A DNA stretch of 52,445 bases. Origin: Anaerolineae bacterium. Its GTDB lineage: Bacteria > Chloroflexota > Anaerolineae > UBA4142 > SHND01. The translations under genes were made by a program, and so were the position numbers. The notes beneath the pieces were generated by a model. It saw only the letters and a list, made by a program, of their open reading frames with translations. It was not told the origin of the DNA and searched no databases. The stretch covers positions 1 to 52,445 of the forward strand of contig JAJTXZ010000028.1 of the NCBI GenBank assembly GCA_021463195.1. Reading direction: 5' to 3'. Position 1 is the stretch's first letter. The number at the start of each line of letters is the position of its first letter. This document shows positions 26,902-31,508 of this stretch, in pieces.

Positions 26902-26955
26902 AACTATGGTATATAGAAAGTAAGTTAGTTAAAAACAGATTGGCTGGAATATTTA

Positions 26956-27047
26956 TACGGGGGCGATGAACTCGGGTCCAGCTGCGGTGAGTTGCGCAGT
27001 AGCATGGACGCCTTGACCTGAGGGAGCCAGTGGCGTAACCGACCGTA
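26956..27047 (+). ncRNA. Structured RNA element A, candidate riboswitch aptamer
   Basis: Closing stem TACGG (26956-26960)/CCGTA (27043-27047). Next come conserved GGGGC, a long arm CTCGGGTC (26971-26978)/GACCTGAG (27015-27022, one G-U), an inner CTGCG/CGCAG hairpin, ATGGACGC (27004-27011), then GAGCCA and GCGTAACCGACCGT (27033-27046). Element B repeats the conserved blocks while both stems change in a compensatory way. The 3' strand of the closing stem is also the 5' arm of the following terminator, so forming the stem should prevent termination (ON logic). I cannot match it to a known class. Confidence 0.75.
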
Positions 27048-27076
27048 CACAAGCAAAATGCTTGGTACGGTTTTTT
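27042..27076 (+). terminator. Terminator of element A (expression platform)
   Basis: ACCGTAC (27042-27048) plus CAAGC (27050-27054) pair with GCTTG (27060-27064) and GTACGGT (27065-27071), 12 bp with one bulged A, followed by a T-run. Its first arm overlaps the closing stem of RNA element A, so the two structures exclude one another. It lies 202 bases before the next start codon, so it is an attenuator rather than the end of a gene. Confidence 0.88.
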
Positions 27077-27101
27077 GTTTGGGTCATTTAAAAACAATAT
27101 A

Positions 27102-27212
27102 AACGGGGGCTGTGAAACTCTGCCGCGCTGTTATTTTACGATAGCAGCAATATGGACGCTCATTGCGTAGACGCGCAAAGGCAGAGTCGAGCCAATAGCG
27201 TAACCGACCGTT
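27102..27212 (+). ncRNA. Structured RNA element B, second copy
   Basis: Closing stem AACGG (27102-27106)/CCGTT (27208-27212); long arm ACTCTGCC (27117-27124)/GGCAGAGT (27180-27187); ATGGACGC at 27152-27159; GAGCCA and GCGTAACCGACCGT (27198-27211) identical in type to element A. Stem bases differ from A but still pair. Downstream ATTCCAA/TTGGAAT (27229-27246) followed by TTGTTT could be a weak second terminator. The start codon of the regulated gene is 67 bases away. Confidence 0.75.
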
Positions 27213-27278
27213 CATGCCCTTGACGCAGATTCCAAAGAATTGGAATTTGTTTCGGGGATTAGATGAAAGGAGAAAAAC

Positions 27279-28451
27279 ATGAAAATGTTTGCTTCGGTTT
27301 CGCGAATATCCTTGCGCGTTTTGGCAGTTTTGTTTAGTGTAGTTGCCCTGGCAGCTGTTTTTACCGGCGCTGCCTCTGCCGATTTAGCCGCTTGCGCTAG
27401 CGCCACCGGCGGCGTTTCGGGAACGGGCCCGGGCCAAAATATTAAAGGCACAATTGGCGTAACGAATTATGATATTTGGGCGGGCGTCATCTATGTAGAT
27501 TTGACCGGCACGCCTGATGACGTACAAGCATTTTGTATTGACCTAGCGCATCACATCAATATCGGAGATTGTTTCAACACTGGCGCCGCGTTGACGGGCG
27601 ACCTTGCTAAAACAATCTATTATTATCCACCTGACAAGACCCAATCCAATGACGAGAATGCGGCGCGGCAAGCAGTCGTTTGGCATTTCTCGGATGGATT
27701 TGTCCCCACCACTCCCGCCGCCGTAGTGACGCGGTATAACGCGATTTTGACGGACCTCGCCGCTCAACCAGCGCCACCTTCGTCGCATCCGCCGACGCTG
27801 ACTGTGAATCCCGCTTCCGCCACCAAATATATTTATGGCAGTCAGACCTTTACCTTTACGCTCTTGCAAGATGGCTCGCCGATGGTCGGCCAAACGATTA
27901 CGTTATCTTTGACCGGCGTCGGCTCGCTCAACGCTTCCAGCATTGTCACTGACGCGAATGGCGAAGCGACTGTTACTGTAACGAGCAATGAGGTGGGCGT
28001 CTCGAATGTACTGGGCAGTTTTGCGTATACGCTGCCCAAAGGCACGCAATTCAATCCAGTCATTGCCGATAAACAAAAATTAGTGTTGGGCGAAACGACC
28101 ACCGGCAATGTGACCCAAGACCCATCGGTGCAATGGCAAAAGCCGACTGCCATTACGTTAAGCGCCTTTAACGTCAAAATCAAAAACAAAAGCGTTCAGG
28201 CGAATTGGAAAACCGCTAATGAAGCGGCGGTCACCGGCTTTAATGTATGGCGCCGCGTTGGCAAGGGCGAATGGAAAAAGTTGAATGCGGATACGCTCTC
28301 ACCGACGAATGCAGGCGCAATGCACGGCGGCAAGTACCACTTTAACGACAAGACGGTTAAAAGCGGCAAGACATATTGGTACAAAATAGAAATAGTCGGC
28401 GTGAATGGCACGCTAGAATGGTCCGAGGCAAAACGGGTTGTGTTTCAGTAA
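27279..28451 (+). CDS. Secreted thioester-domain protein with Ig-like and FN3-like domains
   Basis: 390 residues, with an AGGAGA site before the ATG. Signal peptide 1-34 (cleavage after ASA). Residues 60-140 fit a thioester adhesin domain: AFCIDLAHHI with Cys86 and AARQAVVWHF with Gln131, the pair that forms the internal Cys-Gln thioester in Gram-positive surface proteins. Residues 171-245 are a bacterial Ig-like domain (TLTVNP, TDANGEATVTVTS). Residues 295-390 are FN3-like (WKTANEAAVTGFNVWRRVG). No LPXTG or C-terminal anchor is seen, so it may be released. Expression is probably set by the tandem RNA upstream. Confidence 0.8.
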   Translation: MKMFASVSRISLRVLAVLFSVVALAAVFTGAASADLAACASATGGVSGTGPGQNIKGTIGVTNYDIWAGVIYVDLTGTPDDVQAFCIDLAHHINIGDCFNTGAALTGDLAKTIYYYPPDKTQSNDENAARQAVVWHFSDGFVPTTPAAVVTRYNAILTDLAAQPAPPSSHPPTLTVNPASATKYIYGSQTFTFTLLQDGSPMVGQTITLSLTGVGSLNASSIVTDANGEATVTVTSNEVGVSNVLGSFAYTLPKGTQFNPVIADKQKLVLGETTTGNVTQDPSVQWQKPTAITLSAFNVKIKNKSVQANWKTANEAAVTGFNVWRRVGKGEWKKLNADTLSPTNAGAMHGGKYHFNDKTVKSGKTYWYKIEIVGVNGTLEWSEAKRVVFQ

Positions 28452-28453
28452 CG

Positions 28454-28534
28454 GATGTTATGCAAACGCACGGCAAATTTCAAACTTGACGTGCGTTTGC
28501 GCGCTATTTTTTAGCGAGTGCGCGTAACGTGAGT
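28454..28534 (+). repeat. 81-bp palindromic repeat, copy 1
   Basis: Begins GATGTTATGCAAACGCAC and ends GCGTAACGTGAGT. GCAAACGCAC and GTGCGTTTGC form a perfect 10-bp stem, followed by GCGCTATTTTTTAGCG. The same 81 bases, about 88% identical by hand alignment, occur in reverse orientation at 33405-33485. The ends contain GTTA(C/T)GC and GCGTAAC, a short terminal inverted repeat. It may also act as a terminator for the preceding gene. Confidence 0.85.
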
Positions 28535-28571
28535 GAGTAAATTCGCGACATTGTCTTTTTTGAACGGGGGG

Positions 28572-28608
28572 ATACGCGCGACACAAAATGTGTCGCGCGT
28601 ATTTTTTT
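28572..28608 (+). terminator. Rho-independent terminator after the thioester protein gene
   Basis: ATACGCGCGACACA pairs with TGTGTCGCGCGTAT over 14 bp around a three-base A loop and runs into seven T. It insulates the thioester-protein transcript from the paa genes. Confidence 0.92.
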
Positions 28609-28631
28609 GGCGCGGCGCGGCGCGATGTTGT

Positions 28632-28661
28632 TTGACGATTTTGTGTTATTCGATGTATGCT
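28632..28661 (+). promoter_or_regulatory. Promoter of the paa genes
   Basis: TTGACG (28632-28637), 18 bases, TATGCT (28656-28661). It follows the terminator and precedes the paaA ribosome-binding site (GGAGGGA) by about 15 bases, giving a short leader. No clear PaaR-type operator palindrome is visible. Confidence 0.6.
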
Positions 28662-28688
28662 AGGCGACGTACCTATGGAGGGACAATA

Positions 28689-29612
28689 ATGGACGATATG
28701 AATTTACAGGAATTCGAGGCGCGCATCGCGCGCGGCGAAAAAATCGAGCCGGGCGATTGGATGCCTGACGCTTATCGTAAACAGTTGATTCGGATGATTT
28801 CGCAGCACGCGCATAGTGAAATTATTGGCATGCTGCCCGAAGGGGTATGGCTTGGGCGCGCGCCGACGCTGCGCCGCAAAATGGTCTTGCTTTCCAAAGT
28901 GCAGGATGAAGGCGGACATGGCCAATATCTGTATCACGCAGCCGAAACGCTCGGCGCGACGCGCGAAGAAATGACTGACGCGCTGCTCGCGGGCAGAGCC
29001 AAATATTCGTCCGTGTTCAATTATCCGACGTTGACGTGGGCGGATATTGGCATGATTGGCTGGTTGGTGGATGGCGCGGCGATTCAAAATCAAACTATGC
29101 TCGCGCACTGTTCGTACGGGCCCTATTCACGCGCGATGGTGCGAATTTGCACCGAAGAAACGTTTCACAAGAAACAGGGGATGGAGCAAATCATTCGTTA
29201 CGCGCGCGGCACGCCGCGCCAGAAACAGATGGCGCAGGATGCGTTGAATCGTTGGTGGTGGCCCGCGCTCATGATGTTTGGCCCGCACGATACCGCTTCG
29301 CCCAACAGCGCGCAGTTGATTCGCTGGGGCGTCAAGACCAAAACAAATGACGAACTGCGCCAAGATTTTATCAATAAAATGGTGCCCGATTTTCACGCAA
29401 TCGGTTTGACGATTCCCGACCCCGCTTTGCGCTACGATGCCGCCAGCGGCGATTGGCTTGGCGGTGAAATCAACTGGGATGAATTTTGGCGCGTCGTCAA
29501 TGGCGATGGGCCGTGCAACGCGGAGCGGCTGCAAATTCGCCGCACGGCGCACACCGAAGGCGCGTGGGTGCGCGAAGCGTTGAACGCTTACGCGGCAAGG
29601 GCGGAAGCATGA
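28689..29612 (+). CDS. paaA: Phenylacetyl-CoA 1,2-epoxidase subunit PaaA
   Basis: 307 residues from ATG 28689 with a GGAGGGA site; the open frame to 28533 runs through the terminator. It has the ferritin-like di-iron ligands of PaaA, in [18 protein letters not shown] (E-x2-H) and [11 protein letters not shown] (E-x2-H), and the substrate-side [13 protein letters not shown]. PaaA is the catalytic subunit of the PaaABCE oxygenase that epoxidises phenylacetyl-CoA. It overlaps paaB by ATGA. Confidence 0.95.
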
Positions 29613-30163
29613 GCGATTCGCAAGGCACGCGCTATCAAGTGTTTGAACAAGAGCGCGCGGATTTGCCGCATCGTAACGCGGGCGCGATTTATGCGGCAGA
29701 CGCTGAAATGGCGTTGGAAAACGCGCGCGATGTGTTTGTGCGCCGTCCGCACTGTTTGAGCTTGTGGGTGGCGCCTGAACACGCGATTTTTTCCAAAACC
29801 GCGCAAGAATTACAAACCGACGCGTGGGATATCGAGCCCGCCGCCGCTGCGCCGAACGAAACCTATCTGGTGTTTCAAAAGCAAGGGCAAGCGGCGCGCG
29901 AAACTTTTGTCGCGCATGTGGGACAGGTGAGCGCGCGCTCGCCGCAGCAAGCCCTCCGCGCGGCGTTGAATACTTTTCCAACGCGCAATGTCTTTGTGTG
30001 GTGGGTCGTGCCGGAACGCGCCGTGACCAAAAGCGCCGCGGAAGATGTCGCGAGTCTATTCGCGCCCGCGCGCGATAAAAAATATCGGATGCACACTTTT
30101 TATCCCGTCGAACCGATTATGCGCGAATTGAAATCCGCGCAAGGAATGTTGGAAGAAGAGTAA
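29609..30163 (+). CDS. paaB: Phenylacetyl-CoA epoxidase subunit PaaB, tandem-domain form
   Basis: 184 residues from ATG 29609, about twice the usual 95. Two PaaB-like units are seen: residues 9-70 ([20 protein letters not shown] to [11 protein letters not shown]) and 85-160 ([20 protein letters not shown] to [12 protein letters not shown]). Both share the VF-x-Q start, an H-x-G turn, and an ending W-V-x-P-E-x-A. PaaB bridges the epoxidase assembly and is needed for activity. The duplication is internal and in frame. The ATG overlaps the paaA stop. Confidence 0.9.
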
Positions 30164-30196
30164 AGATGAAAGGCAGAAAGCGCAAAGCAGAATGCC

Positions 30197-30260
30197 CCAA
30201 TCATCCAATCACCCAATCATCCAATCACCCAATCACCTAATCACTCAATCACTCAATCAC
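30197..30260. repeat. Eight-base tandem repeat (YCAATCAY x8)
   Basis: Eight consecutive 8-base units between paaB and paaC: CCAATCAT, CCAATCAC, CCAATCAT, CCAATCAC, CCAATCAC, CTAATCAC, TCAATCAC, TCAATCAC. It ends 19 bases before the paaC ATG, so copy number could alter spacing within the operon. Confidence 0.9.
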
Positions 30261-30279
30261 TCGACTCGAAACTCTAAAA

Positions 30280-31029
30280 ATGACTGAAACAACACTGGCT
30301 CTCAAAATCCTTGCGCTCGCGGACGATGAATTGATTCTCGGACATCGCGATTCGGAATGGGCGGGCCATGCGCCGATTCTAGAGGAAGATATCGCGTTCT
30401 CCAATATCGCGCTAGATGAATTAGGTCACGCGCAGTTGTGGTACGAATTGCATCAAACGCTCACCGCAAAAGAACCGGACCGCGTTATCTTTTTTCGCCG
30501 CGCGGCGGATTATCGCAATACGCAATTCGTGGAATTGCCAAAAGGCGATTGGGCTTTTTCGATGACGCGGCAATATTTGTTTGACGCGTACGAAAATGTT
30601 TTGCTCGGTCATTTGATTCATAGCTCTGACGCGCGCGTCGCCGAAATCGCGGCGAAAATGCGTCCCGAAGAAATTTATCATTTACGGCACACGTCAAATT
30701 GGGTGAAACGCCTGGGCTTGGGCACGGCAACAAGTCGGCGGCGGATGCAAAACGCGTTGGATGAATTGTGGCAATACGCGCTGCAACTGTTTACGCCGTC
30801 GGCGGACGACCTCGCATTGATTGCGGCGAATATTTTTCCCGACCTCGCGGTCTTGCAACAAGAATGGGAAACCAATGTCCGCGCGCAGTTGACCGCGTCG
30901 GACTTGGTTGCGCCGCCATCGCGTGCGCCGCTTGCGCTGACGCGCGCGCAGCATACCGAACATTTACAAACATTGTTGGACGAGCTGCAAATGGTCGCGC
31001 GCAGCGAAGCGTACGGAGTGGAATGGTAA
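30280..31029 (+). CDS. paaC: Phenylacetyl-CoA epoxidase subunit PaaC
   Basis: 249 residues, normal length. It has the ferritin-like fold of PaaA without full di-iron function: LILGHRDSEWAGHAPILEED, ALDELGHAQLWYELH, and MRPEEIYHLRHTSNWVKRLG. PaaC is the structural partner of PaaA. Its stop TAATG overlaps the paaD start by one base. Confidence 0.94.
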   Translation: MTETTLALKILALADDELILGHRDSEWAGHAPILEEDIAFSNIALDELGHAQLWYELHQTLTAKEPDRVIFFRRAADYRNTQFVELPKGDWAFSMTRQYLFDAYENVLLGHLIHSSDARVAEIAAKMRPEEIYHLRHTSNWVKRLGLGTATSRRRMQNALDELWQYALQLFTPSADDLALIAANIFPDLAVLQQEWETNVRAQLTASDLVAPPSRAPLALTRAQHTEHLQTLLDELQMVARSEAYGVEW

Positions 31030-31508
31030 TGGTTACGCTGCAAGAGATTTGGCGCGCGCTGGATGAGGTCGTTGACCCGGAAATTCCCGTTGTCTCGCTC
31101 GTCGAAATGGGCATTGTGCGCGAGGTGCAAATGGACGCCGACGGCGTGACAGTTTCAATGACGCCGACGTTTGCGGGTTGTCCCGCGCTGGGCATGATGC
31201 GGAACGAGATTGTCGAAAAACTGCGCGGTTTAGGCATTGCGCGCGTCGAGGTGAAAACAATTTTGAATCCGCCATGGTCGAGCGATATGATTGCCGATTC
31301 CGCGCGCGCAAAATTGAAAACGTTTGGCCTCGCGCCGCCGCCGCGCCATGGCGGCGATGTCCAATTATTTTTTCCCGCCGAGGTTGCCTGTCCTTATTGC
31401 GGTTCGACCGATACGCGCGTCACCAATCCTTTTGGTCCGACGCTGTGCCGCGCGATTTATTTTTGTCGCGGCTGTCAGCAGCCGTTTGAAAAATTCAAAG
31501 CGTTATAG
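31029..31508 (+). CDS. paaD: Phenylacetate pathway protein PaaD (DUF59 + zinc ribbon)
   Basis: 159 residues from ATG 31029; ATG 31023 adds two residues. Residues 1-100 are a MIP18/DUF59 domain (VVDPEIPVVSLVEMGIV, FAGCPALGMMRNEI, NPPWSSDMI). Residues 115-159 hold CPYC and CRGC pairs plus another Cys, a zinc or iron-sulfur ribbon. PaaD is thought to mature the Fe-S cluster of the PaaE reductase. paaE itself is not in the window. Confidence 0.93.
   Translation: MVTLQEIWRALDEVVDPEIPVVSLVEMGIVREVQMDADGVTVSMTPTFAGCPALGMMRNEIVEKLRGLGIARVEVKTILNPPWSSDMIADSARAKLKTFGLAPPPRHGGDVQLFFPAEVACPYCGSTDTRVTNPFGPTLCRAIYFCRGCQQPFEKFKAL

Follow-up and report, generated by a model that had tools for sequence, protein, structure and literature searches.

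Tandem c-di-GMP-II-type riboswitches, very probably ON switches, in the leader of a putative thioester-domain adhesin gene of an Anaerolineae bacterium

Riboswitches for c-di-GMP are enriched in tandem arrangements (PMC12452182). For the c-di-GMP-II class, 59 doublets and 9 triplets have been described in Paraclostridium and relatives, mostly before surface-anchor genes, and in bi-mechanism tandems a SAM-II riboswitch with a terminator is followed by a SAM-II or SAM-V riboswitch that acts on the ribosome-binding site (PMC9481103). The c-di-GMP-II class, its tandems before surface-protein genes and bi-mechanism tandems are known; what may be new is a c-di-GMP-II tandem with mixed expression platforms, along with how abundant such arrays are in the class Anaerolineae.

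We analyzed a stretch of 52,445 nt from an Anaerolineae bacterium of the phylum Chloroflexota (contig JAJTXZ010000028.1, forward strand; hereafter the window). Two RNA elements lie in the leader of a gene for 390 amino acids, at 26950-27053 (element 1) and 27096-27218 (element 2), both on the + strand and separated by 42 nt. They extend a little beyond both ends of the region singled out in an initial annotation (26956-27212), whose quoted blocks and stems were each located by a sequence check, and the expression platform of element 2 reaches 27281. A promoter scan of the + strand found no sigma-70-like site. Computational comparison establishes the clan-level membership of the elements, their structure and pseudoknot, the overlap with a terminator and the conservation of the tandem. 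The leader is very probably a tandem of c-di-GMP-II-type ON switches before a putative adhesin with a thioester domain (TED), for which we infer both the ligand and the ON polarity.

The initial annotation had read the elements as a candidate new riboswitch and could not match them to c-di-GMP-II. The Rfam search that it suggested as a check recovered a known class, which removes the novelty. In a cmscan of the whole window, element 1 was identified as c-di-GMP-II-GAG (RF03169; 51.2 bits, gathering score 40). Element 2 matched c-di-GMP-II (RF01786) over its full length in a local search (41.0 bits, E 1.2e-7; gathering score 53.5) and RF03169 at 38.3 bits, just under the gathering score of 40. 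Element 1 scored 46.6 bits against RF01786, likewise below 53.5. E values against Rfam, obtained with a 401-base stretch, were 2.3e-9 for element 1 and 1.2e-7 for element 2, and the matches covered model positions 1-86 and 1-84, respectively. Because element 2 falls under both gathering scores and element 1 exceeds only that of RF03169, sequence comparison places both at clan level (CL00127, c-di-GMP-II) and not as typical members of RF01786 or the GAG family. An unrelated, new class could appeal to the scores of element 2, which taken alone lie under the gathering thresholds, but significant full-length matches to two CL00127 models, in which pseudoknot and conserved core are both present, make this reading exceedingly improbable, and we regard it as ruled out by the Rfam matches. 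The 4.7 Mb genome holds no other match to RF03169 or RF01786 besides the two elements. Two congeneric genomes carry the same tandem before orthologues of the TED gene; the proteins are 63% identical for G586 and 61% for G544.

Both elements have the same layout. In element 1, the closing stem P1 (TACGG 26956-26960 / CCGTA 27043-27047) encloses an inner helix (GGC/GCC, 26962-26964/27026-27028) and the long arm P2 (CTCGGGTC 26971-26978 / GACCTGAG 27015-27022). In element 2, the corresponding parts are P1 (AACGG 27102-27106 / CCGTT 27208-27212), the inner helix (GGC/GCC, 27108-27110/27191-27193) and P2 (ACTCTGCC 27117-27124 / GGCAGAGT 27180-27187); it also carries inserts that are found in the second elements of the two orthologous leaders. 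In both, the P2 loop forms a 5-bp pseudoknot with the strand after the inner helix, which had been overlooked initially: ACGCC/GGCGU in element 1 (27008-27012/27032-27036) and ACGCU/AGCGU in element 2 (27156-27160/27197-27201), a difference that is itself a covariation.

We collected 48 elements, including those of the window, from the genus, order, class and phylum; blocks were delimited by terminal sequence anchors together with a pseudoknot-loop motif, and the strands of P1, the inner helix and P2 were not fitted to pairing in the alignment. Across 36 of these elements, 92.3% of cells form standard pairs, compared with 73.1% in shuffles, and 16 of the 21 pairs show double changes, among them all eight P2 pairs (8/8). 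Sliding the partner by one column lowers pairing to 28-34%. The pseudoknot is paired in 98.3% of cells and shows double changes in 3/5 pairs; as the anchor motif largely fixes its inner letters, only the outer pairs provide an independent test. The first of these is seen as A-U, U-A and G-C, and the last as C-G, U-A and G-C. P1, the inner 3-bp helix, P2 and the loop-to-3' pseudoknot are, at the level of sequence, supported by covariation. Together with the Rfam matches, the pairing in relatives bears out the earlier proposal of tandem, covarying aptamers.

The two elements share the core GCGUAACCGACC. At the GAG position, a feature of RF03169 that we took from the Rfam consensus line, both read GCGUAACCG, and no GAG precedes ACCG in the 3' joining strand. 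UAACCG (GCGUAACCG or similar) occurs in 37 of the 47 compared elements, which places the window among most of its relatives: it is common to all five sampled congeners, several members of the order and G407. AAACCG or CAACCG is found mostly in other families of the class, and AGACCG prevails elsewhere in the phylum. The core GGCGUAACCG differs from both the class II consensus GUGCAACCG and that of GAG, GGCGAGACCG, and one altered position in the ligand pocket lets c-di-GMP-I variants sense c-AMP-GMP (PMC9481103). Both points could suggest a c-di-GMP-II variant that binds a different ligand, such as some other cyclic dinucleotide, so that the pair forms a two-input gate. We consider this very unlikely: the differing letter, a U, forms the 3' side of the first pseudoknot pair and changes together with its partner, while AACCG is kept as in class II, so the change looks like drift of a pseudoknot pair and not a change of ligand. 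An altered ligand arising from the GUAA core was accordingly rejected as the main reading. Elements with the same core should also share a ligand, and the genome encodes GGDEF proteins (seven matches over the cut-off). The two-input control offered in the initial annotation finds no support, with both elements belonging to the same class and carrying the same core.

Element 1 runs into an intrinsic terminator (27043..27076, + strand; CCGUACACAAGCAAAAUGCUUGGUACGG-U6), formed by a hairpin at 27043-27070 and a U6 tract at 27071-27076. It starts exactly at the 3' strand of P1, which serves as its 5' arm, and folds with -19.2 kcal/mol (z -5.95), in agreement with the strong terminator described earlier as sharing the closing-stem strand. 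Most elements of the genus have a terminator beginning at exactly this point. P1 and the terminator are mutually exclusive in the computed ensemble, which passes from P1 (0.70) to the terminator (0.98) as the transcript end moves from 27066 to 27070. Since the ensemble shifts to the terminator as the transcript grows, read-through would need P1 to be held, presumably by ligand. Without c-di-GMP, the 3' strand of P1 would enter the terminator and transcription would end near 27076; when c-di-GMP is bound, the aptamer with its pseudoknot would hold P1 and RNA polymerase would read through to element 2. On these modeled folds, element 1 should be an ON switch whose ligand turns the gene on, a polarity that we infer and that supports the ON mechanism first proposed for the shared strand.

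Element 2 would repeat this test, most likely on translation. Its candidate platform (27208..27272, + strand) sets the 3' strand of P1 against the Shine-Dalgarno region, with a long hairpin (27218-27257) enclosed. In the predicted pairing, CC.UUCAU (27208-27209, 27211-27215) binds AUGAA.GG (27263-27267, 27269-27270) and overlaps the Shine-Dalgarno sequence AAAGGAG (27266-27272). The probability of this pairing is ~0.9 for the leader alone and 0 once the aptamer with P1 is imposed; without ligand, the P1 strand would thus cover the Shine-Dalgarno region, and with ligand it would be kept in P1. For transcripts that extend beyond ~27295 (~15 nt of coding sequence), the Shine-Dalgarno sequence is predicted to be covered by coding sequence in the ligand-bound state too, so that support for the anti-Shine-Dalgarno reading is moderate. 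A terminator reading was dropped for this element, as neither candidate hairpin has a U tract: that at 27218-27257 is followed by AUUAGAUG, and the inner one, ending at 27250, by UUCGGGG.

Action of element 2 on translation, through pairing of its P1 strand with the Shine-Dalgarno sequence, has about an even chance of being correct on these models. The competing explanation retains the ON-switch tandem with element 1 as the sole regulator: a terminator of the orthologous type would have decayed at element 2, and its platform would be lost. The second elements of both orthologous leaders, in G586 and G544, have P1-overlapping terminators (CCGUUCGCGAAUUAUUCGUGAACGG-U8 and similar) where the window has none, so that translational action is not a conserved trait of the locus, and the anti-Shine-Dalgarno pairing exceeds shuffles only moderately (with the intervening sequence shuffled, the native value is attained in 3-5% of cases; fractions 0.03-0.05). 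Such a loss is a serious possibility, to which we give somewhat less than an even chance. The aptamer core of element 2 is nevertheless intact, and from P1 through the Shine-Dalgarno sequence to the start codon the RNA folds into a single long hairpin (z -4.37). Moreover, the congener G530 has another tandem, in which the P1 3' strand of the second element, CCAUGAGCAU, pairs with AUGCUCAUG over the start codon of a gene for a probably secreted protein of 495-497 amino acids, and this element lacks a terminator, which makes translational second elements plausible in the genus. From its predicted pairing, this G530 element (L081:1771-1920) is itself likely a translational c-di-GMP-II ON switch. 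A bi-mechanism ON/ON tandem, in which element 1 would control termination and element 2 would uncover the ribosome-binding site, parallel to the start-codon pairing in G530, is on the modeled folds a reading that may prove right or wrong with equal probability. It would carry with it, at evenly balanced chances, a conversion of the second platform from a terminator to an anti-Shine-Dalgarno hairpin since the split from the congeners.

The regulated gene (27279..28451, + strand) encodes a probably secreted protein of 390 amino acids, with its signal peptide judged by eye, that combines a thioester domain (PF08341) with a Big_1-like Ig domain. The TED match of 24.0 bits exceeds the Pfam cut-off of 22, supporting the thioester surface protein named in the initial annotation, and Big_1 reaches 34.3 bits, just under its cut-off of 34.9. 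Described TED motifs comprise [YFL]C, TQxx-W, the thioester Gln and an LPXTG anchor (PMC4450167). By eye, FCID corresponds to [YFL]C and RQAVVWHFS to TQxx-W; in the same inspection, LPXTG was not seen and the thioester Gln was not identifiable. The C-terminal ~110 amino acids (28118-28451) recur at about ten places in the genome, and congeneric genomes have 4-13 copies with ~30-49% identity, often inside larger open frames; this domain may serve in secretion or surface sorting. Directly downstream of the TED gene (28533-31508) lie phenylacetate-degradation-like genes (PaaA/PaaC), of which only the first was scanned (PF05138, E 5e-91).

Two more distant TED homologues in Anaerolineae metagenome-assembled genomes (32-34% identity) lie behind c-di-GMP-I-GGC riboswitches, located ~20-45 nt from the open frame (L132:2805-2890, L133:2263-2344). 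This kind of adhesin appears to be c-di-GMP-controlled through two unrelated RNA classes, which is good circumstantial support for c-di-GMP as the ligand and suggests that genes of this kind have exchanged one c-di-GMP riboswitch class for another. A c-di-GMP-I riboswitch is present in the genome under study as well (RF01051, 64.5 bits; L134:1502-1599; G000:C87:3658-3755).

Of 400 genomes from the phylum, 101 have RF03169 matches, and of 298 from the same class, 43 have RF01786 matches; the named homologues are from Anaerolineae, Chloroflexota. We also found c-di-GMP-II-type triplet arrays before secreted-protein genes in G407 and G595 (L091:818-1170 and 2588-2949; L092:2528-2888; L095:723-1164). 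In the G407 triplets, only the last element has a clear P1-overlapping terminator and the upstream elements have none; adjacent aptamers could share one platform in these arrays.

With two elements of one class and one core, a steeper response to a single ligand is to be expected, as published for such tandems (PMC9481103), and the adhesin would be expected to respond to its signal in a more switch-like manner. The locus points to a TED adhesin that is likely controlled by c-di-GMP in one Chloroflexota lineage. Terminator-terminator pairs, terminator-translation pairs and triplets together form a natural series for testing the effects of tandems on dose response. The locus also illustrates how an RNA without an apparent match can belong to a known class, as a divergent member that falls under the Rfam cut-off.

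Compared with RF01786, the elements share the full-length match, the layout of P1, inner helix, P2 and pseudoknot, the AACCG core and the putative adhesin target, element 1 has the P1-overlapping terminator, and the predicted ON polarity is that of c-di-GMP-II in C. difficile (PMC6200980). They differ in the pseudoknot (ACGCC/GGCGU in the window versus GCACC/GGUGC) and in their longer P2 loops. Element 1 exceeds the cut-off of RF03169, and the GGCG pseudoknot strand is held in common; in contrast, the consensus GGCGAGACCG reads GGCGUAACCG in the window, and the apparently name-giving GAG is absent. As in the tandems of the Paraclostridium type, two apparently complete riboswitches stand in series before a surface-protein gene, whereas the host here is a member of the Chloroflexota, the protein carries a TED and the expression platforms are probably mixed. 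Like the SAM-II tandems, the leader would place a first riboswitch on transcription and a second on translation initiation, the second step here being only predicted; those tandems, however, respond to SAM with ligand-induced termination, while the present one would respond to c-di-GMP as an ON/ON pair.
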